Origin: Hypoxylon rubiginosum
Lineage: Eukaryota > Ascomycota > Sordariomycetes > Xylariales > Hypoxylaceae
DNA: 64,000 nucleotides
Direction of reading: 5' to 3'
NCBI GenBank assembly: GCA_902806565.1
Contig: CADCXA010000063.1
Location: 41,459-105,458, forward strand
Positions 1 through 39,862 of the stretch are shown here, piece after piece (the first letter of the stretch is position 1; each line of letters starts with the position of its first letter). The translations under genes and the position numbers were made by a program. Below the pieces are notes generated by a model. That model ran no database searches and was not told where the DNA came from. It worked only from the letters and a program-made list of their open reading frames with translations.

Positions 1-948
1 TGTATTGATTTTTCGGACGCAGCTGTGCGGCATGACCTTCAGACAGAGGATACGGGAGATATGTGGGCTTCGGGATATATTGCTTATGCGATATGTCGAG
101 AACTCATACGCCGGTTGAAGGTTTTAATTCACCGGAGGCGTCTTTCCGAGTCTACGCCTACCGACTTCCTTTGGGACAGCTTCGAAGAAGCTTACAATCT
201 TGATATGTACCGAGAGTCACTAATGGCGGCGTGTGCTCATCAGACCATTGAGAAGTCGGGCTATGTCGTGCGAATGGCGCTAGATGTTCCCAGCGAGAAA
301 ACCTCCCACGACCCAGATGCATTGAGCCACCTCAAAGGCAAATCAGCCGACTCGCCCAAAGAAGATGTGCCTGACGAGGATTACACGGAATCAGCCCCGA
401 AAGTGATCGTTGACATCCCGGAAGGCATGCAAATCGCTGGAGAACCGTCTCCGGGACAATCCGACTCGGACGAGTTTGCATCTGAGGAGTCGGATGCAGA
501 CGAGTTAGGTAATGAAAAGGAGAAAACCCATACCCCGACTCGTCTCTCGACTTCACCCCGTCCGTCGACATCACCCCGTCCGTCAACTTCACCCCGTCCC
601 CCAACTCGTCCTTCGACATCGCCCCGTCCCCCGACATCGCCTCGTCCGGAGGGCATTACTCCTAAGGAAGAGTTGACAAGAGCTCCCAGTCCGATGGATA
701 TTGATCTGCCGGATTATGAAGATGAAGAAGACCTTCATGCTGATTCAATCGGGGGAAAATCGCGCTGTACTAGTAGCTCGCCGCCAGCGGTTGGATCTAT
801 CATCGATGACGAGTGCGAGCAACACCATAAGCATCCCCTAGAAGATACAAGTGATAATGCAGGAGAAGGACCATCGAAGAAGCCGAAGCTTGATACCATC
901 GAGGATGACATCGATTTAATAAAAGACGAGTCTGAAAAACGGGTGTAA
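1..948 (+). CDS. Hypothetical protein with SPRP-repeat tail, 3' part (left palindrome copy)
   Basis: The reading frame is open from base 1 (Cys-Ile-Asp-Phe-Ser...) to the stop at 946–948. It equals the C-terminal ~315 residues of the complete copy at 21593–23143. The 5' half lies outside the window, so the GTG near position 25 is not the real start. The tail carries five SPRP motifs (about 550–650), a long acidic stretch and a basic PSKKPKL motif that could be a nuclear localisation signal. It faces the AA9 gene tail to tail. Confidence 0.8.
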   Translation, partial: CIDFSDAAVRHDLQTEDTGDMWASGYIAYAICRELIRRLKVLIHRRRLSESTPTDFLWDSFEEAYNLDMYRESLMAACAHQTIEKSGYVVRMALDVPSEKTSHDPDALSHLKGKSADSPKEDVPDEDYTESAPKVIVDIPEGMQIAGEPSPGQSDSDEFASEESDADELGNEKEKTHTPTRLSTSPRPSTSPRPSTSPRPPTRPSTSPRPPTSPRPEGITPKEELTRAPSPMDIDLPDYEDEEDLHADSIGGKSRCTSSSPPAVGSIIDDECEQHHKHPLEDTSDNAGEGPSKKPKLDTIEDDIDLIKDESEKRV

Positions 949-1391
949 ATAGGTCACTTAGGAATTCCCTGATTGATAGTACACATAGTAGTATACCCCG
1001 TATTTACTAGATAGTATTCACTTGGTAGATATGTTTATACGTTAGTTCCTTTGTTTTCCATTAAAGCTCACCAGCTACGCAAAGCCTTTAAAAATGCAGA
1101 AAAATGTTTTCTACAAATAGAAGATTACATTTCTACCTACACATAGAATATTGCATTAAATAAAAATACCAGTAAAACGTCTCACCACCAAGTTGAACTG
1201 AGAATGTACCTCTTGTTTACAGATAAAGTTGGAGATATATTGAAAATTTCCTCTGTGACACCCAATCTTCTTCAATGTGCTTAGAGCAAATGTAAATGCA
1301 ATTTCGATCCTAAGACTTGCTCGCTAAGTTGAAATGATTCGTCACTATTTTTCATTGGCAATAACTCTTCATCCGCGCGCCTTGCTCTTCT
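949..1391. other. Intergenic, convergent 3' ends (left arm)
   Basis: AT-rich sequence between two convergent genes. I see no ORF or RNA gene. It presumably carries both 3' untranslated regions. The identical mirror interval is 21150–21592. Confidence 0.6.
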
Positions 1392-2192
1392 CTACGGTTT
1401 GCAAGAAGCAACCGAACCTCCAGGTGCGGAGTACGTCGTAGGGTCAAATCCCCAGTAAAAGTCCGGGATATAGATGCTCTTCTCCTCGGCGTCATAGGCT
1501 CCAGGCAAAGAAATAGTAGGCGAGCACGTTCCTCCAGTCCCCGTAATCTTCAATTGCATGCAGCCCATGTAGAACTGTGCGCCTCCGGCTACCTGGGAGA
1601 GATGAAGAGCCAACATCTCCGATCGAAGCTGAGAAATATGAGAAACGGCTAATCGAGTAGAGATAATAGTGACCGAGTAACGTACTAGGTAATCGCCGCT
1701 CTTTAGACCCGTGGGGAGCTTGAAGGTGTAGTTACCGCCGGCGTTTTCTACAACTTCGTTGGCCCAGAGCCCATCGACATAATTCTGCTCATCAATCTTG
1801 AACCAGCCAGCCCCAACTCCGGAAGCGTTGGAGGCGTCGTCAACAGGTCCATATAAGAAATGGGTGATTGGACCGGAGTGTGTCGAGAGATCCCACGCCA
1901 CAGTGATCGAATCGCCTTCTCGCGCAGGAATCGTCTGTACCCCTGAGGGCACCTTATCACCCCCAACGTTGCACACGATGTCGTTACTCTTCAAATCTGT
2001 CTATTAAAACGTGAGCACATAGTTCCTGAAACAGGGGGCACTGGTACTTACGACCGGGTTGTTATCAGGCGCGCGCCGGATACCGATTTCATAGCCAGGG
2101 GAAACACCGTTGACCCAAAACTGGTGAAGGTTCTGGTGGGCCGCCGAGGTCACGGCTAACGATATAGCAATAACTGACTTGAGCACGATCAT
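1392..2192 (-). CDS. AA9 lytic polysaccharide monooxygenase (left palindrome copy)
   Basis: Exact mirror of the gene at 20349–21149. Exons in transcript order are 2192–2052, 2000–1686 and 1628–1392 on the minus strand, giving a 230-aa secreted copper enzyme. Splice sites, signal peptide and all copper-binding residues are identical to the right-arm copy, where the full description is given. There is no sign of RIP damage between the two copies. Confidence 0.9.
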
Positions 2193-2260
2193 CTTTCCAC
2201 AGAGCTATACAGACCACTGTGTTGCTGGTGAGTCAGTACTGATTGAGTGAAGGGGAAGTC

Positions 2261-2288
2261 AAGCAAGCAAGCAAGCAAGCAAGCAAGC
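2261..2288. repeat. (AAGC)7 microsatellite (left copy)
   Basis: Seven perfect AAGC units in the upstream region of the AA9 gene, mirrored at 20253–20280 as (GCTT)7. The copy number is identical in both arms. Confidence 0.9.
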
Positions 2289-2462
2289 GATCGAGCTGTG
2301 AGATGGAAGAAAGATAATTCCTGTTAGACCATGAGTTCGTAGCCACGGTATTTGTATCTTTAGTCAACATCCGGCAAGCTTGCATGAGGCCAGAATCCAG
2401 ACGTGCAGTAAGGATTTCTGGCTCAATCTGTATGAATGGAGAGAAACACTCCATTGGGATGT

Positions 2463-2539
2463 CGATTGAATTATGAAGTGCGAATTACGAGTTACGAACC
2501 CCAAAGTACGAACTACGAGTTGAGAATTACGAATTAGGA
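2463..2539. repeat. Heptamer array, consensus ATTACGA (left copy)
   Basis: Mirror of 20002–20078, described there. Eleven consecutive 7-bp steps lie about 270–350 bp upstream of the AA9 start. Confidence 0.65.
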
Positions 2540-3472
2540 GATTTGCCAAGTGTTACTGCTATTCTGCCTCATACCCTAGAGCTTCGATACCCCTTTCCAA
2601 TATTTTCCTGCAATGATAGACACTACATCTTCGTCTGACTCAATCTATCAAATTCTCAACATGCAATAATTCTCATGGATATTAATATCTGTATTACCAG
2701 CGGTTTCAAAATCCTGATTTGCTTGACTTCTGATAGGGGGGATAGCAACAACCTCCTTCTTTTAAAAGACTGGATGTCACTTTGTATGTAGACTGTAGGC
2801 AGGTAAAGTGATTTTTATATACATTAGGTAGGCAAGAAGGACAAGTGTCTACCTAATTGAGTTCGCGTTGTTTATCAAGCTAGACAACCAAGTGAGACGC
2901 CTTAGGTTATCCCCCTTTTCATTGATTACGTAAGCGCCATTGCGCAACTTGGACGAGTCAACACCAACGGCAGTGAATCTTCTAGCAATTATTATATCAG
3001 CTAGTTCCAACAACTTGATTATAAACTACAAAATTTTATTTTTGGTAAAAATCTTAAATGAATTGGACGACTCTATATCGCTTGTACGGTACCTCCTTTA
3101 CTCCAATGGGTTTGACAGACAAGGAATATGCCCAACTACCTCGTAGTGGCTACTTAGGTACATAGGTAGGTAGGTACCTAGTGAGACGAGTTCTATGGAG
3201 ACGCGAAGGATTGGAAATGCGTACGAGGAGCTCAACCCTCCGCTCAAGTCAACTAGGCTCGCTGACGTGATTCTAAACAGAACAATTTTTTCACGGGGTA
3301 AATGCTATATCACAGCATGTTAGTAAGTTGATACACTGCTGCTGGTCCCAAAGAGTGCTAGAAAGTATCATTGGTACATATAAAAAATATACGAAAGTTT
3401 GCGAATCCGACTGCTGAATTTACCACCACGATGCTACCGACGGGAAAACTATAGCCTTGCGAATTTTCAGCT

Positions 3473-4603
3473 TTAGCCCTTCGTAGTAGATCCAATGTCG
3501 CCCCATCGAATATTGGAAAATGTAACGTGCGTGTCAGGATGCTGAGACTGGATGGCGGAAGGGGTACTCTCCGCGAGGTTGCAGGGTCCATTATTGCCGG
3601 CGTCAAGCCAAGACATACTCTGGGCGGCGTCATTCCAAATACTCATCGCCAATACCACTGTCAGAATCAAGTCAGCAATCGCTATCGTAGGACATATGTG
3701 GGTGTCATGTCACGCGCACAACCCGAGTGCGTGGGCGAGGCAATTTGAAAGTTTCAAGACAGGGGTACTAGGTTACTTACTTCCTCGTCCCAAAGCCTGG
3801 CCCATGCCGGCAAGCCCGCCAAAGGCGCCGTTGCAGCTGGAAATCGCCCCGCTGTTGCTCTGCTTCCCGTTCTGGATGTACGTGCGCGTGATCTGCGTCA
3901 GCGTGCCGCTGCCCACGAACTGCGTGACGACCGTGAAGGGCTTGCTGGTGTCGACGGTGCCGCCCGTGGCCCAGAAGTTGCGCTGGCCGCTCGCGTACGG
4001 GTTGTACCCGCAGCCGGACTTGTCGCAGCTGTTCCCGGTACACGGGTGGGGGGTCATGGCCGTGGCCTTGGCGTTGGCCTCGAGGATGTCCATCTCGTTG
4101 CAGCAGAAGCCCTGGCACTGGGCGTCGCAGTAGCCTTGGCCGGCTGCCGCGCCGCCCGAGGACCCGCCGCCGTCGGCCTCCATCTCCGAGAGGTAGAAGG
4201 CCCCGTTCTCTCCGCAGGGCACGGCCGAGTAGTCGACGTCCACGGAAAGCTCCTGGTTTAGGAGGCTCATGAGGACGTATTTGCCGTCCTCGCCTAGGAG
4301 GTAGATGCGAGGAGATGCGGGATTGAGTGCACCGCCCGATTGGACGTAGTGATACATAGTCACGGCGTCGCCCGAAGTAGAGACTCCCATAGCAGCGTAG
4401 TCATCTGCCGTTCTTGAGCCAGCAGACCCTTGGGCGTATTTGGAATCTTTGTCTAGCACGACCGAAGTGTTCTGCTGGACGCAACCTCCTGAGGTGGTGC
4501 ATTTCCAAGTTAATAGGGAGGGATGTTGCTCAGAGCTTTGAGCGACGACCACACCTGTTAGCAGCGAGCCTACCAGGCCGACATACAGGAGTTTTGAAGA
4601 CAT
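3473..4603 (-). CDS. GH7 endoglucanase-type cellulase (left palindrome copy)
   Basis: Exact mirror of the gene at 17938–19068. The minus-strand exons are 4603–3781 and 3657–3473, giving 335 aa. See the right-arm copy for domains, catalytic residues and the shortened N-terminal region. The GC-rich exons show no difference from the other arm. Confidence 0.9.
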
Positions 4604-5176
4604 GCTGTTGTATAGGCTGTCTGTTTAATGCCTTGCGGCCTTGCGATCAAGCGATCAAGACGAAAACAGTGTAGAATGTGCGAAATGTTGTCATATTTCG
4701 TATCTACTGGTTAGCTACCTTCCTTATTAATCAATTATTGCCTCCATGAAAACGGAATACCTCCGCATTTTCGCATCGATTTAGGCGTAGCGCTAGACAT
4801 TTATATGCCGGAGCGGCAGTCCAGGATTTTTCCGTTTAGGAAATCCGGAGGGTACGGGGAGATTGTAACATATAACGGCTGAATGTCAACTATGACAGCA
4901 CACATTCGGGAAAATATCCACCGCACATGGCCGGGTTCAGGAGGCGTGCGAATCACGTATAGGACGGTCCGTTTTATGGGTCAGGTACGACATCGACCGA
5001 GAATTCGGCACTTGAGCGGGGATGGGTTCTCAAACGGCAGGTCGGCAAACATGGATCAATCGCTTGTGATTGAAACCATTCGGGTATATGAAGCCGGTGG
5101 GCGCGGTGCTATGCTGTTTCATCAGTTCTCACCTAAAAGAAAACAAAAGAAGAAAAAGGGGAAAATAAATTTATAA
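4604..5176. promoter_or_regulatory. GH7 upstream region (left arm)
   Basis: Mirror of 17365–17937. It includes a TATAAA box at 4800–4805 on the minus strand, about 200 bp before the ATG. A 97-codon ORF at 4883–5176 overlaps this region but has no recognisable family and is read as chance. Confidence 0.5.
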
Positions 5177-5840
5177 CATGGGCGAATACTTATTAACGTT
5201 CTAAATTATATATCTTCCTTATTAATGCGTATAATCTAAGCCTATAAAAGACTTCGCTATATTAGAAACTAGAGTTTACGTATATAAAACAAATAAAAGA
5301 AATATTCTTAATTTTATATTAACGGTTACTTACTAGGTAAATAACTAAATAAAAATTAATAAATATTTTAATAATTAAACTATATTTAAATATTTAAATA
5401 AATATAATCTTTTATTTTAAAAAAAACTAATAATATATTTATTATAAATAATATTATATTAATATTATAATATTATTTACTTTTTATATAAAAAGTAAGT
5501 TTTTTAATTTATTTTTTTAAAAAATTCTATTTTATAATAACTTAATATAATATATTATTACTTATTAAAACTTTATTATAAATTTATATTAAACCGTTAA
5601 AATAATAAAAATATTAAGTTTATTAAATTTATTAAATTTATTAAATTTATAAAATAAATTAAAACTATAATATATATAATTTTTATATTATATAAATATA
5701 TTAAATTTTTAATAAATTAATATATTTTATTAATTTAAATTATAAAAAATATATAATAATTAATTATAATTATATTTAAATTTAAAATTAAATTTATTAT
5801 ATTTATAAAATATTTATAATAATATTTAAATTATTATAAA

Positions 5841-5996
5841 ACTATTATTAAATTATTATTAAATTATTATTAAGTTATAATTAAACTATTATTAAATTAT
5901 AATTAAATTATTATTAAATTATAATTAAACTATTATTAAATTATAATTAAATTATTATTAAATTATATTTAAATTATAATTAAATTAAAATCTTTA
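5841..5996. repeat. Short-period AT tandem array (left copy)
   Basis: An array of AT-only words alternating between AAATTATTATT and AAATTATAATT-like units, with a period of about 11–12 bp over about 150 bp and occasional G/C variants. It looks like a simple satellite or a slippage product inside the AT block. No function can be read from it. Confidence 0.7.
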
Positions 5997-8900
5997 TATT
6001 ATAAAATATATAAAATATTATATTAAAAATTTTTAAAGTTTTTAATTAAATTAATAATTTTAATAATATAATTTATTATATATTAAATAATAATTTCCTT
6101 ACTTATTTTAATTTTAATATTTTAATTATTATATATTAAAATTTTTTAAACTTTTATTATTTAAATAAAACTATAAACTTATTTATTATTTTTAAAGTTT
6201 AAATAAAAAATATATAATTTTTATAATTTAAATAAAAGGCTTAATTTATTAATATTAAAAAAAATATAAACTAAGTTTATTTATATATAAAATTTTAATA
6301 TTAAGATAATATAATAATTTTTTAACTTATAATTTTATTATTTAAATAATAAATCTTATATATATATATAATTAGATTTAAAAGTTATATATTAAAAAAT
6401 TAATTAGCTTTTTTTTATAACTTATATAATTTACTAATTAAAATAAATTAAAGTTTTTATTATAACTTTAAAAACTTATTTAAAAATAACTAATTATAAA
6501 AACTTAAAACCTTAAAATATAAACTTGTAAATATAAATAAAATAATTATTATAAATAAATATTATTTATATTTAATTTATCTTTTATTTAAATAAATATT
6601 AAATAAAAAAAAATATTAAATATTATATAAAATATTCTTATAAAATATTTTATTAATAAAAATATTAATATTATAAAATAATAATATTATTATAAAATTA
6701 TTTAAGCGATAAAAGAAATTAAAATATTATTATATAAAAAGTAATAAATTTAATAATTATAAATATTTTTATATATATAAGAATAATAAATAAAAAAGTT
6801 TATTAAATAAAAAAACTTATTATATTTATTTTTAATATTTTTAATAATATAAACACTTAATATTATTATTTTAAAAGTTATAATTTTTTAAATAATAAAA
6901 ACTAAGTTTTTATAATAAAACTTTAATTTTAATAAATATAAAAAGCTTTTAAATTTATATATTAATATTATAATAATTAACACTTAAAAAACCTTAATTT
7001 TAAAAAGATTAATATAAATTATTATAAAAAACAAATTAATAATAACTTAAATAATATTTTAAACTTTATATATTAAATATAAATTTATTAAAAAAAACCT
7101 ATAAAAACAATTAAACTATTATTATATATATTTTTATAATTTAATTTATAAAATATTTAAAATATATTTAAAATAAGATTTTCTTTTTATAATTTAAAGT
7201 AAATAATCTAATTATAATTTTATATATAATATATTTTTAAAAAGATTTATAAAAACTAAATTATTTTTATTTATTATAATGTTAAATATAATATAAAAAA
7301 AAACTTTTATTATAATAAACTAAAAAAAGTTATATAAACTTTAAAAAATTAATAAAATTAAAACTTTTAATAAATAAAAATAATAATTCTTATTATTTAA
7401 TATTTATTTATTTAATATTTATTTATTTAAATATATATTTAAGTATTAATATTTTAAATAATAAAATAATATTTAGTAGGTTAAATAGATATTTACTTAA
7501 ATAAAAAATAATTAATAATTAAAATAACTATTTTTACCGTTTTAGTAACTTTATATTATAAATATATATTTAAAAGATAAATAATTTATAATTATTATAA
7601 AAGATAATATATAAATTTTTAACATTTTTTAAATTTATTTCTTTATTTTTAAAATATTTAATAAATAACCATATAATTATATTTATTTTACCTTTATTTA
7701 TTCTTTTATTTTATTTAATTAAGCTATATATTATATTATTTCGTTATATAAAAACTTATTAAATACTAATACCAGCTTTTTTTTATTTTTTTTATATTAT
7801 TTTAAATAATTTTTTAAACTAATATATTTATTAAAATATAAACGGTTCTTATTTTTAATAAACCCTAATAAATATTACACTAACCATTTATTATAAATCC
7901 ATTATATTTTTAAAATTAAAAAACTATTAAAATTATATTTATATATTAACTTTAATAATAAAAAATTAAAAATTAAATTTATAATATAATTTTTTATTTT
8001 TATATTATTTAAATTTATTTAAAATTTATTAATATAATTAATAATTTTATTTTTTTACTATTTAATAATATAAATATTTTATAAATAAATATACTAAACT
8101 ATTTTTTATTATAATAAGTTTCTAAAAATAATATATATTATAACTTAAATATAAAACTAATACTTTTTAAATAAATTTAAATTATATAAACTTTTAAAAT
8201 ATTATTAATAATATAATATTAATATTAATATTTAATAATATAAATATTAATTTATTTATAATTTAATAATTAATTATATTAATTTAAAAAAAAAAACCAT
8301 TATTACTTAATTTTTATATTATATTAACTTATATAAAACTTATATAATTTTAAGATATATATATTTTATTTTTATTTTATTTTTATTTTATTTATAAATT
8401 ATATGGTTATTTAAGGTTTAATTTATATAATTAATTAATATTATATTTAAACTATAAAAGGAGTTTTAATTTTATAATTTATATAGGTTATTTAAAGTTA
8501 AAATCCTAGTATAATAATTATTTTAAAATATTAATTAACTATATTTATAAATAAATTATTAGATTTATTAATATTATATTATATAATTTTATAAAAATAA
8601 ATATTAATATTTATATAAATTTTAAATCTAGTAAAATAAAATTTCTAATATTTATTTATATTTTATAATTAATTTAGTTTTAAAACTAAAAAAAGTTTTT
8701 ATTTTTTATTATAATAAACTTTTTTTTAGTTATATTAATAATTTATAATTTTTAAATATATTTAAATATATTTAAATTAAATTATACTTTTAAAAATAAG
8801 CTGTTTTATAATTATACGTACTAGTTTATATATTAAATTTCTTTTTATATTTATTAATATATTTAACTTAAACTTATAATTATAATAAAATTTAATTATA

Positions 8901-9299
8901 TTATTTTTATATTATTTATATTTAATTAAATTAGTAACTTTCTGTTTTATATTGTTTTTTAAATAAATTTTAATAAAAAAAATATAATTTATATTAATTT
9001 TTTTAATAAGTTATAAATAATTAAGGATAATTTTATTATGGAAATTTATATAGAAAAAATAATCTTATATTTATTTTTTTATTTTTTTTTTATATTTTAT
9101 TAAATTATATTCTATTGTATTTTATTACGTTAGTTTATATTAAAAGGAATATAACATTAAGTTAATATTAAAATATTTTTATATTAAATAATTAATAATT
9201 TTAAAGTAAAATAATTTTATTTTAAAAAATATAAGTATATTTATTTAAATATTATTAATATTAATTTTATTTTTATTGAGTTTTTATTAATTTAAATAC

Positions 9300-10250
9300 C
9301 ATTAAAAAGTTTATATGTTTATATAAATATTATATTTTTATTAAAGTTTTTTAATAATTTTTTAATAAAATAACTAATTTTTTTAATATTATTAAATAAT
9401 AACTTTTTTAAATTTAATAAAATTATATTAAATTAAGTATTAATAAAAGGTTTATAAAATAATATAAACATAATAATAATTATAAAGTTTTTAAAAAATT
9501 ATAATTTTAAATAATTGGTTTTTTTTATATTAATAAATAAGAATCTTTTTTTATTAACTAAGATTATATTTAATTAAATATTATTTTAAGATTTTTTAAC
9601 TAATATAAATATTATAGTTTTATTATAATTTTTAAAAGATTATATTTTTAAGGAATTAATTTTTTTGGTATTATTAAATAAAAATATTTTTAATTTAATT
9701 TAAGTTATATTTAATTAAATATTATTTTAAGATTTTTTAACTAATAAAAATATTATATTCTTATTATAATTTCTAAAAAATTATATCTTTAAATAACTAA
9801 TTTTTTTAATATTATTAAGTAAAAACAAATTAAAATTTAATAAAATTATATTTATTTAAATATTAATTAAAAGTTTATAAATTAATATAAATATTATATT
9901 TTTATTTAAATTTTTAGATAATACTAGGTTTAAATAGCTTTTTTTTTTAGTATTATTAAATAAAAATTTCCTTATATTTATTAAAGTTACTTTTATTTAA
10001 ATATAACTTAAAAATCTATAAAACTATATAAATATTATATTTTTATTAAAACTTTTAAAAAACTTAAACTTTAATTAGTTAATTTTAATAATATTATTAA
10101 ATAATAATCTTTTTAAATTTATTAAAGTTATAATTATATTTAGGTAAATATTATTAAAAGGTTTATATATTAATATAAATATTATATTTTTATTAAATTT
10201 TTTAGTAAATTTTATTTTAAAATAAATAATTTTATTAATATCATTAAATA
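9300..10250. repeat. Degenerate ~140-bp tandem repeat, about 7 units (left copy)
   Basis: A recurring anchor of the form TATTATTAAATAA appears near 9389, 9526, 9669, 9811, 9951, 10091 and 10240, giving spacings of about 137, 143, 142, 140, 140 and 149 bp. Other shared parts of the unit include a TATAAATATTATATTTTTATTA-like segment (19 of those bases recur in several units). The units are diverged and contain almost no G or C. It could be a RIP-degraded satellite or a degraded gene with internal repeats. The period is not a strict multiple of three, which favours a non-coding repeat. Confidence 0.7.
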
Positions 10251-11247
10251 ATTTAACTTTTATATAATTAAAAAGTAATAAAAAGTAATATATTAATATT
10301 TAAACTTTAAATATTTTAAATATAAAATATTAATTATATGTTAATAATATTAAATTATATATAAATTAATTTATTAATTATTTTATTAAAAAACCTTATT
10401 TATTTTAGTTTATTTTATATATTATATATTATTATTTGTTTTTTTTTATAAGTTATCTTTTGTTTTTTATAAGTATAAAACTTTAAAAAGGTTTTAAATT
10501 TTAATTAATTTTATTTTTTTCTTTTATATTAACTAAACTATTATAATAAATATAATAAATAATTATATAAATAATAACTATTAAATTTTACCTTAAATTT
10601 TAAATAATATATAATATTTATAAAATGTTTTTTTAATAAAATTTTTAATGTTAAAAAACTTTTATATTAATATTAATAATATAATAAAATATATTTTATT
10701 AAATAATTTAAAAAAGTGGATAACTAAATATATAAAATTAATTATAAGAAATTTCCTTCGTAATTTATTAAGTTTAATTAATAAGTTAATGTTTTTAAAT
10801 AACTAGTTTTAATATTTATAAAATAAAATAAAAATATTTTTAATATATATTAAATTTATAAGTTTAATTAACTTAAAAAATTAATTAAAAAATATAAATA
10901 AGTTTTTATTTTATATTAATAAATTTTTTATTAATATTAACTTTATAATTAAATATATAAAATAATTTCTTAGTATTATTATAAACTAATTTAAATTTTT
11001 TTATTAGTTTAAATAAATTTATTTATTATTAGTTTTTTAAGAAATTAAAATAATAAACTTTTATTATTATTTTATTATTTTATAACTTTTAAAAATTATA
11101 TTTAAAGTTTTTAATAAAACTTTAAAGTTTAAAAAATAATACGTTAAATATTTTTATTAATTATTACCATATAATAAAAAGGAATTTTTTAAATTTTAAT
11201 AAGTTAATATAATAAACTATTTTTAATTATATTAAGAAAAGTATTTT

Positions 11248-11295
11248 ATATATATTAATATTAAAATATTAAATTTTAATATTAAATATATATTA
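11248..11295. other. Centre of the palindrome
   Basis: The exact pairing of the arms stops at 11247/11296. The 48 bp between are themselves nearly palindromic: 11-bp perfect arms at 11257–11267 and 11273–11283 surround a 5-nt loop (ATTAA, 11268–11272). A 9-bp versus 12-bp AT stretch lies outside them. There is therefore essentially no unique spacer, and one strand could fold into a hairpin with only a tiny loop. Confidence 0.85.
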
Positions 11296-12291
11296 AAAAT
11301 ACTTTTCTTAATATAATTAAAAATAGTTTATTATATTAACTTATTAAAATTTAAAAAATTCCTTTTTATTATATGGTAATAATTAATAAAAATATTTAAC
11401 GTATTATTTTTTAAACTTTAAAGTTTTATTAAAAACTTTAAATATAATTTTTAAAAGTTATAAAATAATAAAATAATAATAAAGTTTATTATTTTAATTT
11501 CTTAAAAAACTAATAATAAATAAATTTATTTAAACTAATAAAAAAATTTAAATTAGTTTATAATAATACTAAGAAATTATTTTATATATTTAATTATAAA
11601 GTTAATATTAATAAAAAATTTATTAATATAAAATAAAAACTTATTTATATTTTTTAATTAATTTTTTAAGTTAATTAAACTTATAAATTTAATATATATT
11701 AAAAATATTTTTATTTTATTTTATAAATATTAAAACTAGTTATTTAAAAACATTAACTTATTAATTAAACTTAATAAATTACGAAGGAAATTTCTTATAA
11801 TTAATTTTATATATTTAGTTATCCACTTTTTTAAATTATTTAATAAAATATATTTTATTATATTATTAATATTAATATAAAAGTTTTTTAACATTAAAAA
11901 TTTTATTAAAAAAACATTTTATAAATATTATATATTATTTAAAATTTAAGGTAAAATTTAATAGTTATTATTTATATAATTATTTATTATATTTATTATA
12001 ATAGTTTAGTTAATATAAAAGAAAAAAATAAAATTAATTAAAATTTAAAACCTTTTTAAAGTTTTATACTTATAAAAAACAAAAGATAACTTATAAAAAA
12101 AAACAAATAATAATATATAATATATAAAATAAACTAAAATAAATAAGGTTTTTTAATAAAATAATTAATAAATTAATTTATATATAATTTAATATTATTA
12201 ACATATAATTAATATTTTATATTTAAAATATTTAAAGTTTAAATATTAATATATTACTTTTTATTACTTTTTAATTATATAAAAGTTAAAT

Positions 12292-13242
12292 TATTTAATG
12301 ATATTAATAAAATTATTTATTTTAAAATAAAATTTACTAAAAAATTTAATAAAAATATAATATTTATATTAATATATAAACCTTTTAATAATATTTACCT
12401 AAATATAATTATAACTTTAATAAATTTAAAAAGATTATTATTTAATAATATTATTAAAATTAACTAATTAAAGTTTAAGTTTTTTAAAAGTTTTAATAAA
12501 AATATAATATTTATATAGTTTTATAGATTTTTAAGTTATATTTAAATAAAAGTAACTTTAATAAATATAAGGAAATTTTTATTTAATAATACTAAAAAAA
12601 AAAGCTATTTAAACCTAGTATTATCTAAAAATTTAAATAAAAATATAATATTTATATTAATTTATAAACTTTTAATTAATATTTAAATAAATATAATTTT
12701 ATTAAATTTTAATTTGTTTTTACTTAATAATATTAAAAAAATTAGTTATTTAAAGATATAATTTTTTAGAAATTATAATAAGAATATAATATTTTTATTA
12801 GTTAAAAAATCTTAAAATAATATTTAATTAAATATAACTTAAATTAAATTAAAAATATTTTTATTTAATAATACCAAAAAAATTAATTCCTTAAAAATAT
12901 AATCTTTTAAAAATTATAATAAAACTATAATATTTATATTAGTTAAAAAATCTTAAAATAATATTTAATTAAATATAATCTTAGTTAATAAAAAAAGATT
13001 CTTATTTATTAATATAAAAAAAACCAATTATTTAAAATTATAATTTTTTAAAAACTTTATAATTATTATTATGTTTATATTATTTTATAAACCTTTTATT
13101 AATACTTAATTTAATATAATTTTATTAAATTTAAAAAAGTTATTATTTAATAATATTAAAAAAATTAGTTATTTTATTAAAAAATTATTAAAAAACTTTA
13201 ATAAAAATATAATATTTATATAAACATATAAACTTTTTAATG
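12292..13242. repeat. Degenerate ~140-bp tandem repeat (right copy)
   Basis: Reverse-complement copy of the array at 9300–10250 in the other palindrome arm. The scattered G/C positions that distinguish the units are preserved exactly. Confidence 0.7.
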
Positions 13243-16200
13243 GTATTTAAATTAATAAAAACTCAATAAAAATAAAATTAATATTAATAATATTTAAATA
13301 AATATACTTATATTTTTTAAAATAAAATTATTTTACTTTAAAATTATTAATTATTTAATATAAAAATATTTTAATATTAACTTAATGTTATATTCCTTTT
13401 AATATAAACTAACGTAATAAAATACAATAGAATATAATTTAATAAAATATAAAAAAAAAATAAAAAAATAAATATAAGATTATTTTTTCTATATAAATTT
13501 CCATAATAAAATTATCCTTAATTATTTATAACTTATTAAAAAAATTAATATAAATTATATTTTTTTTATTAAAATTTATTTAAAAAACAATATAAAACAG
13601 AAAGTTACTAATTTAATTAAATATAAATAATATAAAAATAATATAATTAAATTTTATTATAATTATAAGTTTAAGTTAAATATATTAATAAATATAAAAA
13701 GAAATTTAATATATAAACTAGTACGTATAATTATAAAACAGCTTATTTTTAAAAGTATAATTTAATTTAAATATATTTAAATATATTTAAAAATTATAAA
13801 TTATTAATATAACTAAAAAAAAGTTTATTATAATAAAAAATAAAAACTTTTTTTAGTTTTAAAACTAAATTAATTATAAAATATAAATAAATATTAGAAA
13901 TTTTATTTTACTAGATTTAAAATTTATATAAATATTAATATTTATTTTTATAAAATTATATAATATAATATTAATAAATCTAATAATTTATTTATAAATA
14001 TAGTTAATTAATATTTTAAAATAATTATTATACTAGGATTTTAACTTTAAATAACCTATATAAATTATAAAATTAAAACTCCTTTTATAGTTTAAATATA
14101 ATATTAATTAATTATATAAATTAAACCTTAAATAACCATATAATTTATAAATAAAATAAAAATAAAATAAAAATAAAATATATATATCTTAAAATTATAT
14201 AAGTTTTATATAAGTTAATATAATATAAAAATTAAGTAATAATGGTTTTTTTTTTAAATTAATATAATTAATTATTAAATTATAAATAAATTAATATTTA
14301 TATTATTAAATATTAATATTAATATTATATTATTAATAATATTTTAAAAGTTTATATAATTTAAATTTATTTAAAAAGTATTAGTTTTATATTTAAGTTA
14401 TAATATATATTATTTTTAGAAACTTATTATAATAAAAAATAGTTTAGTATATTTATTTATAAAATATTTATATTATTAAATAGTAAAAAAATAAAATTAT
14501 TAATTATATTAATAAATTTTAAATAAATTTAAATAATATAAAAATAAAAAATTATATTATAAATTTAATTTTTAATTTTTTATTATTAAAGTTAATATAT
14601 AAATATAATTTTAATAGTTTTTTAATTTTAAAAATATAATGGATTTATAATAAATGGTTAGTGTAATATTTATTAGGGTTTATTAAAAATAAGAACCGTT
14701 TATATTTTAATAAATATATTAGTTTAAAAAATTATTTAAAATAATATAAAAAAAATAAAAAAAAGCTGGTATTAGTATTTAATAAGTTTTTATATAACGA
14801 AATAATATAATATATAGCTTAATTAAATAAAATAAAAGAATAAATAAAGGTAAAATAAATATAATTATATGGTTATTTATTAAATATTTTAAAAATAAAG
14901 AAATAAATTTAAAAAATGTTAAAAATTTATATATTATCTTTTATAATAATTATAAATTATTTATCTTTTAAATATATATTTATAATATAAAGTTACTAAA
15001 ACGGTAAAAATAGTTATTTTAATTATTAATTATTTTTTATTTAAGTAAATATCTATTTAACCTACTAAATATTATTTTATTATTTAAAATATTAATACTT
15101 AAATATATATTTAAATAAATAAATATTAAATAAATAAATATTAAATAATAAGAATTATTATTTTTATTTATTAAAAGTTTTAATTTTATTAATTTTTTAA
15201 AGTTTATATAACTTTTTTTAGTTTATTATAATAAAAGTTTTTTTTTATATTATATTTAACATTATAATAAATAAAAATAATTTAGTTTTTATAAATCTTT
15301 TTAAAAATATATTATATATAAAATTATAATTAGATTATTTACTTTAAATTATAAAAAGAAAATCTTATTTTAAATATATTTTAAATATTTTATAAATTAA
15401 ATTATAAAAATATATATAATAATAGTTTAATTGTTTTTATAGGTTTTTTTTAATAAATTTATATTTAATATATAAAGTTTAAAATATTATTTAAGTTATT
15501 ATTAATTTGTTTTTTATAATAATTTATATTAATCTTTTTAAAATTAAGGTTTTTTAAGTGTTAATTATTATAATATTAATATATAAATTTAAAAGCTTTT
15601 TATATTTATTAAAATTAAAGTTTTATTATAAAAACTTAGTTTTTATTATTTAAAAAATTATAACTTTTAAAATAATAATATTAAGTGTTTATATTATTAA
15701 AAATATTAAAAATAAATATAATAAGTTTTTTTATTTAATAAACTTTTTTATTTATTATTCTTATATATATAAAAATATTTATAATTATTAAATTTATTAC
15801 TTTTTATATAATAATATTTTAATTTCTTTTATCGCTTAAATAATTTTATAATAATATTATTATTTTATAATATTAATATTTTTATTAATAAAATATTTTA
15901 TAAGAATATTTTATATAATATTTAATATTTTTTTTTATTTAATATTTATTTAAATAAAAGATAAATTAAATATAAATAATATTTATTTATAATAATTATT
16001 TTATTTATATTTACAAGTTTATATTTTAAGGTTTTAAGTTTTTATAATTAGTTATTTTTAAATAAGTTTTTAAAGTTATAATAAAAACTTTAATTTATTT
16101 TAATTAGTAAATTATATAAGTTATAAAAAAAAGCTAATTAATTTTTTAATATATAACTTTTAAATCTAATTATATATATATATAAGATTTATTATTTAAA

Positions 16201-16544
16201 TAATAAAATTATAAGTTAAAAAATTATTATATTATCTTAATATTAAAATTTTATATATAAATAAACTTAGTTTATATTTTTTTTAATATTAATAAATTAA
16301 GCCTTTTATTTAAATTATAAAAATTATATATTTTTTATTTAAACTTTAAAAATAATAAATAAGTTTATAGTTTTATTTAAATAATAAAAGTTTAAAAAAT
16401 TTTAATATATAATAATTAAAATATTAAAATTAAAATAAGTAAGGAAATTATTATTTAATATATAATAAATTATATTATTAAAATTATTAATTTAATTAAA
16501 AACTTTAAAAATTTTTAATATAATATTTTATATATTTTATAATA

Positions 16545-16700
16545 TAAAGATTTTAATTTAATTATAATTTAAATATAATTTAATAATAATTTAATTATAA
16601 TTTAATAATAGTTTAATTATAATTTAATAATAATTTAATTATAATTTAATAATAGTTTAATTATAACTTAATAATAATTTAATAATAATTTAATAATAGT
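16545..16700. repeat. Short-period AT tandem array (right copy)
   Basis: Mirror copy of the array at 5841–5996, with the same ~11–12 bp units in reverse complement. The rare G and C variants are conserved base for base. Confidence 0.7.
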
Positions 16701-17364
16701 TTTATAATAATTTAAATATTATTATAAATATTTTATAAATATAATAAATTTAATTTTAAATTTAAATATAATTATAATTAATTATTATATATTTTTTATA
16801 ATTTAAATTAATAAAATATATTAATTTATTAAAAATTTAATATATTTATATAATATAAAAATTATATATATTATAGTTTTAATTTATTTTATAAATTTAA
16901 TAAATTTAATAAATTTAATAAACTTAATATTTTTATTATTTTAACGGTTTAATATAAATTTATAATAAAGTTTTAATAAGTAATAATATATTATATTAAG
17001 TTATTATAAAATAGAATTTTTTAAAAAAATAAATTAAAAAACTTACTTTTTATATAAAAAGTAAATAATATTATAATATTAATATAATATTATTTATAAT
17101 AAATATATTATTAGTTTTTTTTAAAATAAAAGATTATATTTATTTAAATATTTAAATATAGTTTAATTATTAAAATATTTATTAATTTTTATTTAGTTAT
17201 TTACCTAGTAAGTAACCGTTAATATAAAATTAAGAATATTTCTTTTATTTGTTTTATATACGTAAACTCTAGTTTCTAATATAGCGAAGTCTTTTATAGG
17301 CTTAGATTATACGCATTAATAAGGAAGATATATAATTTAGAACGTTAATAAGTATTCGCCCATG

Positions 17365-17937
17365 TTATAAATTTATTTTCCCCTTTTTCTTCTTTTGTTT
17401 TCTTTTAGGTGAGAACTGATGAAACAGCATAGCACCGCGCCCACCGGCTTCATATACCCGAATGGTTTCAATCACAAGCGATTGATCCATGTTTGCCGAC
17501 CTGCCGTTTGAGAACCCATCCCCGCTCAAGTGCCGAATTCTCGGTCGATGTCGTACCTGACCCATAAAACGGACCGTCCTATACGTGATTCGCACGCCTC
17601 CTGAACCCGGCCATGTGCGGTGGATATTTTCCCGAATGTGTGCTGTCATAGTTGACATTCAGCCGTTATATGTTACAATCTCCCCGTACCCTCCGGATTT
17701 CCTAAACGGAAAAATCCTGGACTGCCGCTCCGGCATATAAATGTCTAGCGCTACGCCTAAATCGATGCGAAAATGCGGAGGTATTCCGTTTTCATGGAGG
17801 CAATAATTGATTAATAAGGAAGGTAGCTAACCAGTAGATACGAAATATGACAACATTTCGCACATTCTACACTGTTTTCGTCTTGATCGCTTGATCGCAA
17901 GGCCGCAAGGCATTAAACAGACAGCCTATACAACAGC
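17365..17937 (+). promoter_or_regulatory. GH7 promoter region (right arm)
   Basis: A TATAAA box at 17736–17741 lies about 200 bp upstream of the GH7 ATG. A GCGGAG word near 17776 fits the SYGGRG site of CreA/Cre1 carbon-catabolite repressors, which commonly act on cellulase genes. A single short match is weak evidence. The AT-rich block begins immediately upstream, so the whole normal-composition promoter is about 570 bp. Confidence 0.5.
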
Positions 17938-19068
17938 ATGTCTTCAAAACTCCTGTATGTCGGCCTGGTAGGCTCGCTGCTAACAGGTGTGGTCGTCGCT
18001 CAAAGCTCTGAGCAACATCCCTCCCTATTAACTTGGAAATGCACCACCTCAGGAGGTTGCGTCCAGCAGAACACTTCGGTCGTGCTAGACAAAGATTCCA
18101 AATACGCCCAAGGGTCTGCTGGCTCAAGAACGGCAGATGACTACGCTGCTATGGGAGTCTCTACTTCGGGCGACGCCGTGACTATGTATCACTACGTCCA
18201 ATCGGGCGGTGCACTCAATCCCGCATCTCCTCGCATCTACCTCCTAGGCGAGGACGGCAAATACGTCCTCATGAGCCTCCTAAACCAGGAGCTTTCCGTG
18301 GACGTCGACTACTCGGCCGTGCCCTGCGGAGAGAACGGGGCCTTCTACCTCTCGGAGATGGAGGCCGACGGCGGCGGGTCCTCGGGCGGCGCGGCAGCCG
18401 GCCAAGGCTACTGCGACGCCCAGTGCCAGGGCTTCTGCTGCAACGAGATGGACATCCTCGAGGCCAACGCCAAGGCCACGGCCATGACCCCCCACCCGTG
18501 TACCGGGAACAGCTGCGACAAGTCCGGCTGCGGGTACAACCCGTACGCGAGCGGCCAGCGCAACTTCTGGGCCACGGGCGGCACCGTCGACACCAGCAAG
18601 CCCTTCACGGTCGTCACGCAGTTCGTGGGCAGCGGCACGCTGACGCAGATCACGCGCACGTACATCCAGAACGGGAAGCAGAGCAACAGCGGGGCGATTT
18701 CCAGCTGCAACGGCGCCTTTGGCGGGCTTGCCGGCATGGGCCAGGCTTTGGGACGAGGAAGTAAGTAACCTAGTACCCCTGTCTTGAAACTTTCAAATTG
18801 CCTCGCCCACGCACTCGGGTTGTGCGCGTGACATGACACCCACATATGTCCTACGATAGCGATTGCTGACTTGATTCTGACAGTGGTATTGGCGATGAGT
18901 ATTTGGAATGACGCCGCCCAGAGTATGTCTTGGCTTGACGCCGGCAATAATGGACCCTGCAACCTCGCGGAGAGTACCCCTTCCGCCATCCAGTCTCAGC
19001 ATCCTGACACGCACGTTACATTTTCCAATATTCGATGGGGCGACATTGGATCTACTACGAAGGGCTAA
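17938..19068 (+). CDS. GH7 endoglucanase-type cellulase
   Basis: Glycoside hydrolase family 7 enzyme that would hydrolyse beta-1,4 bonds of cellulose outside the cell with retention. Exons are 17938–18760 and 18884–19068. The 123-bp intron starts GTAAGT and ends CAG; joining restores GRG-MVLAMS, the conserved GMVL.MS.W block. The product is 335 aa: signal peptide about 1–21, then the catalytic domain. The active-site segment EMDILEAN places the nucleophile at E170, the assisting acid at D172 and the acid/base at E175. Further family blocks are [31 protein letters not shown] and [11 protein letters not shown] at the end. There is no linker or CBM1. The open-cleft layout resembles Cel7B endoglucanases more than cellobiohydrolases. 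Oddly, the stretch between VVLD (about 48–51) and the DYA..GV block (68–73) is very short and lacks the cysteine-rich loop usual in this family. The same-strand AA9 gene follows 1.3 kb downstream. Confidence 0.93.
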
Positions 19069-20001
19069 AGCTGAAAATTCGCAAGGCTATAGTTTTCCCG
19101 TCGGTAGCATCGTGGTGGTAAATTCAGCAGTCGGATTCGCAAACTTTCGTATATTTTTTATATGTACCAATGATACTTTCTAGCACTCTTTGGGACCAGC
19201 AGCAGTGTATCAACTTACTAACATGCTGTGATATAGCATTTACCCCGTGAAAAAATTGTTCTGTTTAGAATCACGTCAGCGAGCCTAGTTGACTTGAGCG
19301 GAGGGTTGAGCTCCTCGTACGCATTTCCAATCCTTCGCGTCTCCATAGAACTCGTCTCACTAGGTACCTACCTACCTATGTACCTAAGTAGCCACTACGA
19401 GGTAGTTGGGCATATTCCTTGTCTGTCAAACCCATTGGAGTAAAGGAGGTACCGTACAAGCGATATAGAGTCGTCCAATTCATTTAAGATTTTTACCAAA
19501 AATAAAATTTTGTAGTTTATAATCAAGTTGTTGGAACTAGCTGATATAATAATTGCTAGAAGATTCACTGCCGTTGGTGTTGACTCGTCCAAGTTGCGCA
19601 ATGGCGCTTACGTAATCAATGAAAAGGGGGATAACCTAAGGCGTCTCACTTGGTTGTCTAGCTTGATAAACAACGCGAACTCAATTAGGTAGACACTTGT
19701 CCTTCTTGCCTACCTAATGTATATAAAAATCACTTTACCTGCCTACAGTCTACATACAAAGTGACATCCAGTCTTTTAAAAGAAGGAGGTTGTTGCTATC
19801 CCCCCTATCAGAAGTCAAGCAAATCAGGATTTTGAAACCGCTGGTAATACAGATATTAATATCCATGAGAATTATTGCATGTTGAGAATTTGATAGATTG
19901 AGTCAGACGAAGATGTAGTGTCTATCATTGCAGGAAAATATTGGAAAGGGGTATCGAAGCTCTAGGGTATGAGGCAGAATAGCAGTAACACTTGGCAAAT
20001 C

Positions 20002-20078
20002 TCCTAATTCGTAATTCTCAACTCGTAGTTCGTACTTTGGGGTTCGTAACTCGTAATTCGCACTTCATAATTCAATCG
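20002..20078. repeat. Heptamer array, consensus TCGTAAT
   Basis: Eleven consecutive 7-bp steps run from 20002. TCGTA occurs exactly at 20009, 20023, 20030, 20044 and 20051, all in the same 7-bp register, and the intervening heptamers are one to several changes away (TCCTAAT, TCGCACT, TCATAAT). It lies about 270–350 bp upstream of the AA9 start codon. It may be a degenerate microsatellite or a cluster of regulator sites; the sequence does not decide between them. Confidence 0.65.
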
Positions 20079-20252
20079 ACATCCCAATGGAGTGTTTCTC
20101 TCCATTCATACAGATTGAGCCAGAAATCCTTACTGCACGTCTGGATTCTGGCCTCATGCAAGCTTGCCGGATGTTGACTAAAGATACAAATACCGTGGCT
20201 ACGAACTCATGGTCTAACAGGAATTATCTTTCTTCCATCTCACAGCTCGATC

Positions 20253-20280
20253 GCTTGCTTGCTTGCTTGCTTGCTTGCTT
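20253..20280. repeat. (GCTT)7 microsatellite (right copy)
   Basis: Seven perfect GCTT units about 70 bp before the AA9 start codon, probably in the 5' untranslated region or core promoter. Confidence 0.9.
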
Positions 20281-20348
20281 GACTTCCCCTTCACTCAATC
20301 AGTACTGACTCACCAGCAACACAGTGGTCTGTATAGCTCTGTGGAAAG

Positions 20349-21149
20349 ATGATCGTGCTCAAGTCAGTTATTGCTATATCGTTAGCCGTGACCTCGGCGG
20401 CCCACCAGAACCTTCACCAGTTTTGGGTCAACGGTGTTTCCCCTGGCTATGAAATCGGTATCCGGCGCGCGCCTGATAACAACCCGGTCGTAAGTACCAG
20501 TGCCCCCTGTTTCAGGAACTATGTGCTCACGTTTTAATAGACAGATTTGAAGAGTAACGACATCGTGTGCAACGTTGGGGGTGATAAGGTGCCCTCAGGG
20601 GTACAGACGATTCCTGCGCGAGAAGGCGATTCGATCACTGTGGCGTGGGATCTCTCGACACACTCCGGTCCAATCACCCATTTCTTATATGGACCTGTTG
20701 ACGACGCCTCCAACGCTTCCGGAGTTGGGGCTGGCTGGTTCAAGATTGATGAGCAGAATTATGTCGATGGGCTCTGGGCCAACGAAGTTGTAGAAAACGC
20801 CGGCGGTAACTACACCTTCAAGCTCCCCACGGGTCTAAAGAGCGGCGATTACCTAGTACGTTACTCGGTCACTATTATCTCTACTCGATTAGCCGTTTCT
20901 CATATTTCTCAGCTTCGATCGGAGATGTTGGCTCTTCATCTCTCCCAGGTAGCCGGAGGCGCACAGTTCTACATGGGCTGCATGCAATTGAAGATTACGG
21001 GGACTGGAGGAACGTGCTCGCCTACTATTTCTTTGCCTGGAGCCTATGACGCCGAGGAGAAGAGCATCTATATCCCGGACTTTTACTGGGGATTTGACCC
21101 TACGACGTACTCCGCACCTGGAGGTTCGGTTGCTTCTTGCAAACCGTAG
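20349..21149 (+). CDS. AA9 lytic polysaccharide monooxygenase
   Basis: Secreted copper enzyme (formerly GH61) that oxidatively cleaves cellulose and helps cellulases such as the adjacent GH7. Exons are 20349–20489, 20541–20855 and 20913–21149, giving 230 aa. Intron 1 (GTAAGT...TAG, 51 bp) joins NNPV to TDLKSNDI. Intron 2 (GTACGT...CAG, 57 bp) restores SGDYLLRSEMLALH, a family-typical block. Signal peptide 1–18 leaves His19 as the mature N-terminus, the first arm of the copper histidine brace. His88 (THSGP) is the second arm and Tyr172 in GGAQFY the axial ligand, with Gln170 beside it. The end is YTPGP-like but modified (SAPGG). No CBM is present. Intron 2 is a multiple of three and has no stop, so an unspliced mRNA would encode a 19-residue insertion. 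Confidence 0.93.
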
Positions 21150-21592
21150 AGAAGAGCAAGGCGCGCGGATGAAGAGTTATTGCCAATGAAAAATAGTGAC
21201 GAATCATTTCAACTTAGCGAGCAAGTCTTAGGATCGAAATTGCATTTACATTTGCTCTAAGCACATTGAAGAAGATTGGGTGTCACAGAGGAAATTTTCA
21301 ATATATCTCCAACTTTATCTGTAAACAAGAGGTACATTCTCAGTTCAACTTGGTGGTGAGACGTTTTACTGGTATTTTTATTTAATGCAATATTCTATGT
21401 GTAGGTAGAAATGTAATCTTCTATTTGTAGAAAACATTTTTCTGCATTTTTAAAGGCTTTGCGTAGCTGGTGAGCTTTAATGGAAAACAAAGGAACTAAC
21501 GTATAAACATATCTACCAAGTGAATACTATCTAGTAAATACGGGGTATACTACTATGTGTACTATCAATCAGGGAATTCCTAAGTGACCTAT
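21150..21592. other. Intergenic, convergent 3' ends (right arm)
   Basis: Mirror of 949–1391. It lies between the AA9 stop and the stop of the minus-strand hypothetical gene. I see nothing coding. Confidence 0.6.
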
Positions 21593-23143
21593 TTACACCC
21601 GTTTTTCAGACTCGTCTTTTATTAAATCGATGTCATCCTCGATGGTATCAAGCTTCGGCTTCTTCGATGGTCCTTCTCCTGCATTATCACTTGTATCTTC
21701 TAGGGGATGCTTATGGTGTTGCTCGCACTCGTCATCGATGATAGATCCAACCGCTGGCGGCGAGCTACTAGTACAGCGCGATTTTCCCCCGATTGAATCA
21801 GCATGAAGGTCTTCTTCATCTTCATAATCCGGCAGATCAATATCCATCGGACTGGGAGCTCTTGTCAACTCTTCCTTAGGAGTAATGCCCTCCGGACGAG
21901 GCGATGTCGGGGGACGGGGCGATGTCGAAGGACGAGTTGGGGGACGGGGTGAAGTTGACGGACGGGGTGATGTCGACGGACGGGGTGAAGTCGAGAGACG
22001 AGTCGGGGTATGGGTTTTCTCCTTTTCATTACCTAACTCGTCTGCATCCGACTCCTCAGATGCAAACTCGTCCGAGTCGGATTGTCCCGGAGACGGTTCT
22101 CCAGCGATTTGCATGCCTTCCGGGATGTCAACGATCACTTTCGGGGCTGATTCCGTGTAATCCTCGTCAGGCACATCTTCTTTGGGCGAGTCGGCTGATT
22201 TGCCTTTGAGGTGGCTCAATGCATCTGGGTCGTGGGAGGTTTTCTCGCTGGGAACATCTAGCGCCATTCGCACGACATAGCCCGACTTCTCAATGGTCTG
22301 ATGAGCACACGCCGCCATTAGTGACTCTCGGTACATATCAAGATTGTAAGCTTCTTCGAAGCTGTCCCAAAGGAAGTCGGTAGGCGTAGACTCGGAAAGA
22401 CGCCTCCGGTGAATTAAAACCTTCAACCGGCGTATGAGTTCTCGACATATCGCATAAGCAATATATCCCGAAGCCCACATATCTCCCGTATCCTCTGTCT
22501 GAAGGTCATGCCGCACAGCTGCGTCCGAAAAATCAATACACCCCTGGACCAAGACCTGTCCAAGTTTCCGCTCGACGAATTTCTTCCGGGAGTCTCGATT
22601 CCTGGATATTGGGTCGATAATGGCAATGTCGGTCACCTCACGATCAAAATACTGGGAATCTTTGACTATGGCCGGCTTTGGTTGGACGCGTAAGATAATA
22701 GTTACCCAGTATTTAGTCTCATCGCTAGAGTTACCCTCCGGTACCTGAACTGGCCAAATCGTGAACTCGCGATCCCTCATAGGACCGAATAACGCATTCA
22801 TCTTAACAGACCCATTGCCATTTCCAATCTTCTGCCTGATCTTTCCAAGGTTTTCATTGAAAACTTTCTTGTCCGCGCTGAAGAGACCGCAGTGGTCGGC
22901 CGCAGGGGTGGAAACGATGCGTGGCTGAAGTACATGTCGATGTTCCCAAAACAGAGCCGAGCTCAGTGACGAGGCGTCGACTGGTCTCTCTCTTTCTAAC
23001 TGGAATACGTAACAGTCCTTAGCATATCTCCTGACCTTGCTTACCACCTTGTTCGTTTCGCCTGAGAGCGATGCTCCCCATCCGTTTTGGAGGGGCTCGT
23101 TGCGGATGATGCGCGCCGCACAGGTCGGGGGAGCAGGTGGCAT
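21593..23143 (-). CDS. Hypothetical protein with SPRP repeats and acidic tail
   Basis: A single-exon frame of 516 aa. Residues about 1–250 look globular. A WVTIILRV...DIAIIDP...R pattern followed by TGDMWASGYIAYAI recalls the core of Ulp1/C48-type proteases, where a catalytic His-Asp pair and a Q..G.DCG motif are expected. The Cys is absent, so this is at most a distant, probably inactive relative, and I do not assign a function. Residues about 370–420 contain five SPRP units (proline-rich, possible SP phosphorylation sites). The C-terminal ~100 residues are acidic with a PSKKPKL basic patch. The start at 23143 is the first ATG of the long frame. The palindrome breaks inside the visible part of this gene only because the window starts there. 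Confidence 0.65.
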   Translation of the reverse strand: MPPAPPTCAARIIRNEPLQNGWGASLSGETNKVVSKVRRYAKDCYVFQLERERPVDASSLSSALFWEHRHVLQPRIVSTPAADHCGLFSADKKVFNENLGKIRQKIGNGNGSVKMNALFGPMRDREFTIWPVQVPEGNSSDETKYWVTIILRVQPKPAIVKDSQYFDREVTDIAIIDPISRNRDSRKKFVERKLGQVLVQGCIDFSDAAVRHDLQTEDTGDMWASGYIAYAICRELIRRLKVLIHRRRLSESTPTDFLWDSFEEAYNLDMYRESLMAACAHQTIEKSGYVVRMALDVPSEKTSHDPDALSHLKGKSADSPKEDVPDEDYTESAPKVIVDIPEGMQIAGEPSPGQSDSDEFASEESDADELGNEKEKTHTPTRLSTSPRPSTSPRPSTSPRPPTRPSTSPRPPTSPRPEGITPKEELTRAPSPMDIDLPDYEDEEDLHADSIGGKSRCTSSSPPAVGSIIDDECEQHHKHPLEDTSDNAGEGPSKKPKLDTIEDDIDLIKDESEKRV

Positions 23144-23829
23144 CTTGGTATGTCGTGTAACGAAAGCTTGGTCGAAAATCCTGTTCGTGGAATGATTTCT
23201 AGTCGAATGTGTTGGGTTATTAGACTATTAGGAGAGTGTTTGATGGTGCTGGCGCTTGATAGTCACACCTTCGATGGTTTCCCGCCAGCCCTGTTATGTA
23301 GTCGCGTGATATAAAAGAGCACGGCACGGTGTTACAGCCATCTATTGTGATTGTAAGATGCTGTTGATGCTCGAAGAATGGTAATCAATTAGACAGTGCA
23401 CTGGCATCAAGGCGCTCTTTCACTACGTTGAGTAACAAAAAGGCGAGTCGACAAAGAAACGGATGCGGTAACAAAAGAAGAGGCTATTTAGAATTAGAAT
23501 CGAGGCGCATCACACAATACTCGTTATTCAAAGCAAATTATTGCTCTATGCTACACCACTATGAAGGCGCGATATTGAATTAGAGCACAATATATTATCA
23601 GTCAATTTAAAGATGCAAAGGGCCGACAGCGAACCGGGTATCTCTGCTGGTTGTCGTTATCCCAGTACTTAATTACCCAGGTGTTTACGGCGCCGCTTAC
23701 TTGATATTCTTTATCAGGTACGTAGGATTATCGCTGTGTAGGAGACTAGTAAGTGTTACATATTGTTAAGAACATCATACCCCTGATGACCTGATACCCC
23801 CTAGCCTCATTAGTCCACCTATTGTTCAC
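23144..23829. other. Intergenic, no gene seen
   Basis: Upstream region of the hypothetical gene and spacer to the reductase relic. Short ORFs only, with no recognisable product. Confidence 0.5.
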
Positions 23830-26640: not shown

Positions 26641-26699
26641 GGTCGAAGTAGTAGGACTAAGCGGATTAAGCTTGAAGAAAAAGGAACCTCGGCCGAGCT

Positions 26700-28430: not shown

Positions 28431-28649
28431 GCCTTCATTCTCAATCTCCCCAGCAATACAAGCACTCTACAAGGGCCTCAGCTTCACTCCCACCCACAGC
28501 AAGGAAAAGCGCCGAATGAGAGGGCAATTGGGCAGAGGGGGCGGGGCTATAACCGGATATCAACTGAGGACTCAAGTTTGGGATCCCTATCATAGATTGA
28601 CTACCCATCTACCTCTTTAACTATCGGGAGCTTCGTTCGTTCATTGCAC

Positions 28650-32892: not shown

Positions 32893-32897
32893 GGAAA

Positions 32898-39857: not shown

Positions 39858-39862
39858 GGAAA

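Follow-up and report, generated by a model that had tools for sequence, protein, structure and literature searches.

In fold-back reads, as the sections of the Breakinator study drawn on here describe them, the second half of a read maps back onto the position of the first, on the opposite strand; a filter on the midpoint calls such reads artefacts, and typically less than half of them have more than 11 bp between the two halves (PMC12870357). Palindromes have also been reported in PacBio reads after whole-genome amplification, according to the parts of the Pacasus paper used here (PMC6218980). Here we describe a palindrome in the assembly GCA_902806565.1 of the ascomycete Hypoxylon rubiginosum, in a stretch of 64,000 nucleotides of contig CADCXA010000063.1 (positions 41459-105458 of this contig, hereafter the window; contigs are called by their numbers, in this case C63). 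The published assembly of H. rubiginosum MUCL 52887 is given, in the portion consulted, as PacBio only, with 48,274,337 bp in 70 contigs (PMC8403587), and the genome analysed here holds 48,274,338 bp in 70 contigs, 105,458 bp of them in C63. Judging from the assembled sequences, we put at about 93% the probability that the C63 palindrome belongs to the class of sequencing or assembly artefacts and is not a real chromosome structure.

A palindrome as long as its contig

The initial annotation of the window had described a near-perfect palindrome of 22.5 kb, which is real (window 1-22540 is 99.94% identical to its own reverse complement) but understated: in an end-to-end alignment, C63 matches its own reverse complement over its full extent (1 to 105458), the two differing by 0 mismatches and 23 sites of insertion or deletion (indels), and the whole 105,458-bp contig is one palindrome. 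Its centre lies at position 52,729 of 105,458, at about window 11,271. By self-alignment, the inner part of the left arm occupies window 1..11247 on the + strand (C63 41459-52705) and continues leftward to contig base 1, and the right arm occupies window 11296..64000 on the - strand as the reverse complement of C63 1 to about 52,705. Window base 1, earlier considered a possible contig start, is not an end, as the contig begins 41,458 bp further left, exactly opposite its other end at window 64000. The match therefore runs to window base 1 without an end because the window begins inside the contig, and window 22541-64000 is part of the palindrome as well, its partner lying left of window base 1. 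In the assembled contig there are no unique flanks beyond either arm, and both arms end at the identical base (contig 1 and 105458). A match of 105 kb rules out chance origin, and the lack of both a spacer and unique flanks rules out an ordinary inverted repeat with a spacer.

The outer part of the arms is also found, unfolded, at the end of the ordinary contig C66 (1,756,834 bp), whose last 41 kb was compared with C63 in samples totalling about 7.1 kb. C63 begins with 3,000 bases that also stand at C66 1715790-1718792, the last 1,035 bp of C66 equal C63 39996-41030, and the sampled pieces are colinear with C63 and show 0 mismatches. C66 1715790-1756834 corresponds in this way to arm positions 1-41030 of C63, which in the right arm is window 22969..64000 on the - strand. 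Because this C66 end of about 41 kb is repeated in both arms of C63, its sequence stands three times in the assembly. C66 stops 11.7 kb short of the fold, and C63 adds these 11.7 kb beyond the C66 end; as far as searched, this inner part has no unfolded copy in the assembly. Window 1-5300, which belongs to it, has a full-length match only in the two C63 arms, in addition to one 118-bp match at 76% on C53.

The few disagreements between the arms are unevenly spread. Of the 23 indel sites, seven are found no further than 60 bp from the centre, and the 16 outside it represent eight mirrored places, since by symmetry each arm difference is counted twice there. Five of the eight, one of them 5 bp long, fall in contig 10679-11802 and its mirror; the other three are 1-bp differences in runs of A or T. 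The two 1-bp length differences that the initial annotation had listed are exactly those present in window 1-22540 outside the centre, one at window 8286/14255 (an A-run of 11 against 10) and one at 11059/11483 (a T-run of 4 against 3). The five-site stretch lies in the right arm at window 52196..53322; over the 1,601 bp sampled there, C66 is 100% identical to the right arm and differs from the left arm only, which is why the left arm carries the consensus errors in this stretch. Such a pattern has the look of a low-quality consensus and not of copies evolving apart. That the arm differences reflect divergence of two real copies was rejected, as all are indels, with 0 mismatches, and C66 sides with the right arm at the places of disagreement.

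The fold point and the AT-rich repeat

The fold lies in the first of two blocks rich in adenine and thymine (AT). Block 1 (window 5350..17190) has a guanine plus cytosine (GC) content of 5.8% and consists of a mirrored repeat of about 5.9 kb resembling the products of repeat-induced point mutation (RIP); block 2 (window 32910..39870, GC 4.3%) lies in the right arm, and its mirror lies left of the window. The ratio (CA+TG)/(AC+GT) is 0.14-0.17 in these blocks of 4-6% GC, compared with about 1.1 in the gene-rich parts. Copies of the repeat at 87-91% identity were found on C29, C51, C16, C32 (two), C43 and C26, which are the seven scored of 744 candidates, and the differences to these seven copies are mostly transitions (from 406/472 to 551/609, with the highest share at 473/483). 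Such an AT bias and transition pattern is the usual look of RIP, which was judged here from base composition and transitions.

The fold point itself (window 11248..11295) is where the arms disagree most densely, with the seven central indel sites mentioned above. The description of the palindrome as having no spacer was nearly right, the halves being separated by a loop of about 7 nucleotides, with the seven small indel sites within 60 bp of the centre. The turn adjoins TTTAATATTAAA (window 11275-11286), a 12-bp sequence that is its own reverse complement, and the left arm lacks the three bases immediately before the turn. At the corresponding place, three of the seven repeat copies hold the 10-bp core TTAATATTAA, and two hold TTAACGTTAA, which is also self-complementary. 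When the seven copies, all in correct orientation, were compared with the right arm read in reverse, 156-164 of 175 bases agreed before the fold and 31-34 of 60 beyond it, and past this position the copies resemble one another and not C63. Since all seven match up to the fold and share a sequence of their own after it, the repeat naturally continues where C63 turns.

This continuation bears on the idea of a natural, covalently closed hairpin at a chromosome end that the sequencer would have read as a palindrome. C63 does extend the end of C66, and no telomere repeat is present in the last 1,035 bp of C66, both of which speak for such an end; however, other contigs of this genome end in ordinary TTAGGG telomeres, and with the repeat running on past the fold point in 7/7 copies compared, we consider a closed hairpin end extremely improbable. 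A plain PacBio read with a missed adapter was also rejected: no adapter-like sequence was found in contig 52000-53500 by ungapped comparison with a PacBio adapter sequence, the best place having 25 mismatches in 45.

Recurrence and origin of the palindromes

Both 400-bp ends of 38 of the 70 contigs, a non-random choice of 19 mostly small contigs and 19 mostly taken by number, were surveyed for mirrored ends. Three of the 38 are mirror-ended, namely C63, C61 (130,272 bp) and C13 (122,516 bp), each with 386/386 15-mers in common between start and mirrored end, and the remaining 35 share at most five. In C61, two pairs of inner mirrored pieces were sampled and have 976/976 and 970/976 25-mers in common; its central 10 kb is self-complementary, and 113 of the 129 difference sites, including all 24 mismatches, are within 320 bp of the fold, which sits in a block of 7.5% GC. 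The arm of C61 matches C33 at two colinear places, on which this overlap is based, from position 329426 onward, and the end of C33 at 384,408 is calculated to fall about 10.2 kb before the C61 fold. With its arms and centre sampled, C61 has the same anatomy as C63. Compared with a related repeat copy near the centre, neither arm of C61 was clearly nearer. For C13, which is known from its two 400-bp ends and one search, the start matches C68 at 611279, and the end of C68 at 653,108 is calculated to be about 19.4 kb short of the expected C13 fold; on these grounds C13 looks like C63 and C61. As a separate observation on contig ends, the first 400 bases of C28 (69,857 bp) have 381/381 20-mers in common with those of C19 (457,201 bp), and C28 may for this reason be a redundant contig.

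Within the class of artefacts, a folded molecule or read is the probable source of the palindrome. The biological locus is very probably a single copy of the gene-rich region with GH7 and AA9, adjoining an AT-rich repeat: it would comprise the right end of C66 followed by a further 11.7 kb or so, in which GH7 and AA9 occur once each, and would lead into the RIP-like AT-rich repeat, which does not stop at the fold. Beside the short AT palindrome, a library molecule or read may have turned back, through a self-closed hairpin end or a snap-back, and been read along first one strand and then the other. Such a folded read would join a path of the assembly graph to its own reverse complement, and the contig would then go out on one strand and return on the other, so that both of its ends fall on the same base. 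A folded molecule together with a returning assembly path would account for the complete symmetry and identical ends of C63, for its overlap with an ordinary contig, C66, that breaks off before the fold, and for the low consensus quality at the fold as well as the recurrence. The crowding of disagreements at the folds of C63 and C61 likewise suggests raw-read-like quality at places that are beyond polishing by unfolded reads.

An error of the assembler alone, with no folded molecule behind it, in which reads ending in the 6%-GC block falsely overlap their own reverse complement, would draw on the resemblance of the AT blocks to their own opposite strand (about 65-67% over many kilobases) and on the position of the C63 and C61 folds inside such blocks. 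At the C61 fold, however, the mirrored sides are one sequence interrupted by numerous small gaps across about 640 bp and not unrelated AT-rich stretches, which looks like one poorly read molecule, and the loop of C63 measures only about 7 nucleotides; we therefore hold a false self-overlap to be unlikely.

The initial annotation had left the choice between an artefact arising at a hairpin in the AT block and a fold-back after a chromosome break. The former gained support from the self-complementarity of the whole contig, the repetition of C66 in its arms, the turn beside an AT palindrome and the two further mirror-ended contigs. The latter would be a real fold-back inverted duplication in the sequenced culture, with a break in the AT block, priming at the short palindrome, a hairpin cap and a dicentric or isochromosome-like product. 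Priming near inverted repeats beside breaks is established in yeast, as the sections drawn on of two studies have it (PMC10622511, PMC7467729), and the C63 fold adjoins a 12-bp palindrome with a 10-bp palindrome at the same place in five of the seven other copies. Breakage and fusion, however, are not supported. They would require no fewer than two and probably three separate events within one culture, with RIP having left them wholly untouched, and each case has come to view only as a contig of 105-130 kb that is fully symmetric or has mirrored ends. The genome contains RIP-like blocks and the arms differ by 0 substitutions over 105 kb, from which it follows that the duplication could hardly have passed through a RIP-active sexual cycle, and the consensus quality collapses at the fold. 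We consider a real fold-back very unlikely, and rate just as low the wider notion of real mirror-image chromosome ends, in which fold-back at very short AT palindromes caps breaks in RIP-degraded AT blocks and a strain carries several hairpin-capped or isochromosome-like ends. If the real alternative were true, it would mean that a filamentous fungus caps chromosome ends by fold-back.

Several points weigh against an artefact. The case is built on assembled contigs, and a real folded chromosome end could yield the same contig shape. As far as searched, the assembly holds no unfolded sequence that carries the C63 locus on beyond the fold, a negative that also speaks for a real fold-back. C66 is not wholly identical to the arms, with three 1-base gaps relative to both of them in the first 4.5 kb. 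For PacBio, fold-backs are reported as virtually absent from HiFi and Mas-Seq data and at 0.03% in Iso-Seq, as far as the sections drawn on extend (PMC12870357); the high rates there come from nanopore data, and older PacBio continuous reads fall outside these sections. The PacBio rates speak against a general PacBio source of the folded molecule and not against older chemistries.

Contents of the arms and comparison with known systems

Among the genes of the arms, a GH7 open frame (PF00840) lies at window 17917..18768 on the + strand with its mirror calculated at about 3773-4624 on the - strand, and an AA9 open frame (PF03443) lies at 20541..21149 on the + strand with its mirror at about 1392-2000 on the - strand, likewise calculated. 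Both families, as named in the initial annotation, were recovered by Pfam on single open frames, a result that confirms the families. The third gene (open frame 21593-23224) had no Pfam match. One arm further holds two open frames with the HET domain of heterokaryon incompatibility, at window 28650-31910 and 61356-62903. A flavohaemoglobin-like protein (window 42806-44143, - strand) has its closest matches among Hypoxylon proteins, being 86% identical to one of H. texense and 84% to one of H. cercidicola, and only 82% to one that NCBI names Hypoxylon rubiginosum; at 82%, the latter protein probably comes from a different strain or species, and a cryptic species or a misnamed strain is possible.

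For the assembly, reading the palindrome as an artefact removes a striking but false structure and calls for caution among users. C13, C61 and C63 together take up 358,246 bp, or 0.74% of 48,274,338, of which only about 41 kb is not already in C66, C33 or C68 (calculated from the overlaps, with colinearity assumed). As the sequence is mostly duplicated from these three contigs, genes there would be counted two or three times, and the GH7 and AA9 of the window would be counted twice.

Among the known systems, the fold-back inverted duplications at double-strand breaks of yeast resemble C63 in being mirror duplications around short inverted repeats, but in the sections consulted they are chromosomal events shown by genetics and gels (PMC10622511), whereas C63 is known from assembled sequence, and its recurrence, its symmetry and the collapse of consensus at its fold point away from an event of the yeast type. 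The palindromes treated by Pacasus are, like that of C63, long and a disturbance to assembly, for which splitting at the centre is the remedy; according to the parts of the paper used here they arise in amplified DNA (PMC6218980), and amplification is no established feature of the DNA behind C63. Literature searches brought up nothing of use on palindromic contigs from PacBio data. The fold-back reads of the Breakinator study differ from C63 in being reads and not finished contigs, and the high rates in the sections used are from nanopore data, whereas the matching published assembly is PacBio. They have in common with C63 that a strand continues at the midpoint into its own reverse complement, with little or no sequence between the halves and no adapter in the middle, and that such cases recur within a data set (PMC12870357).

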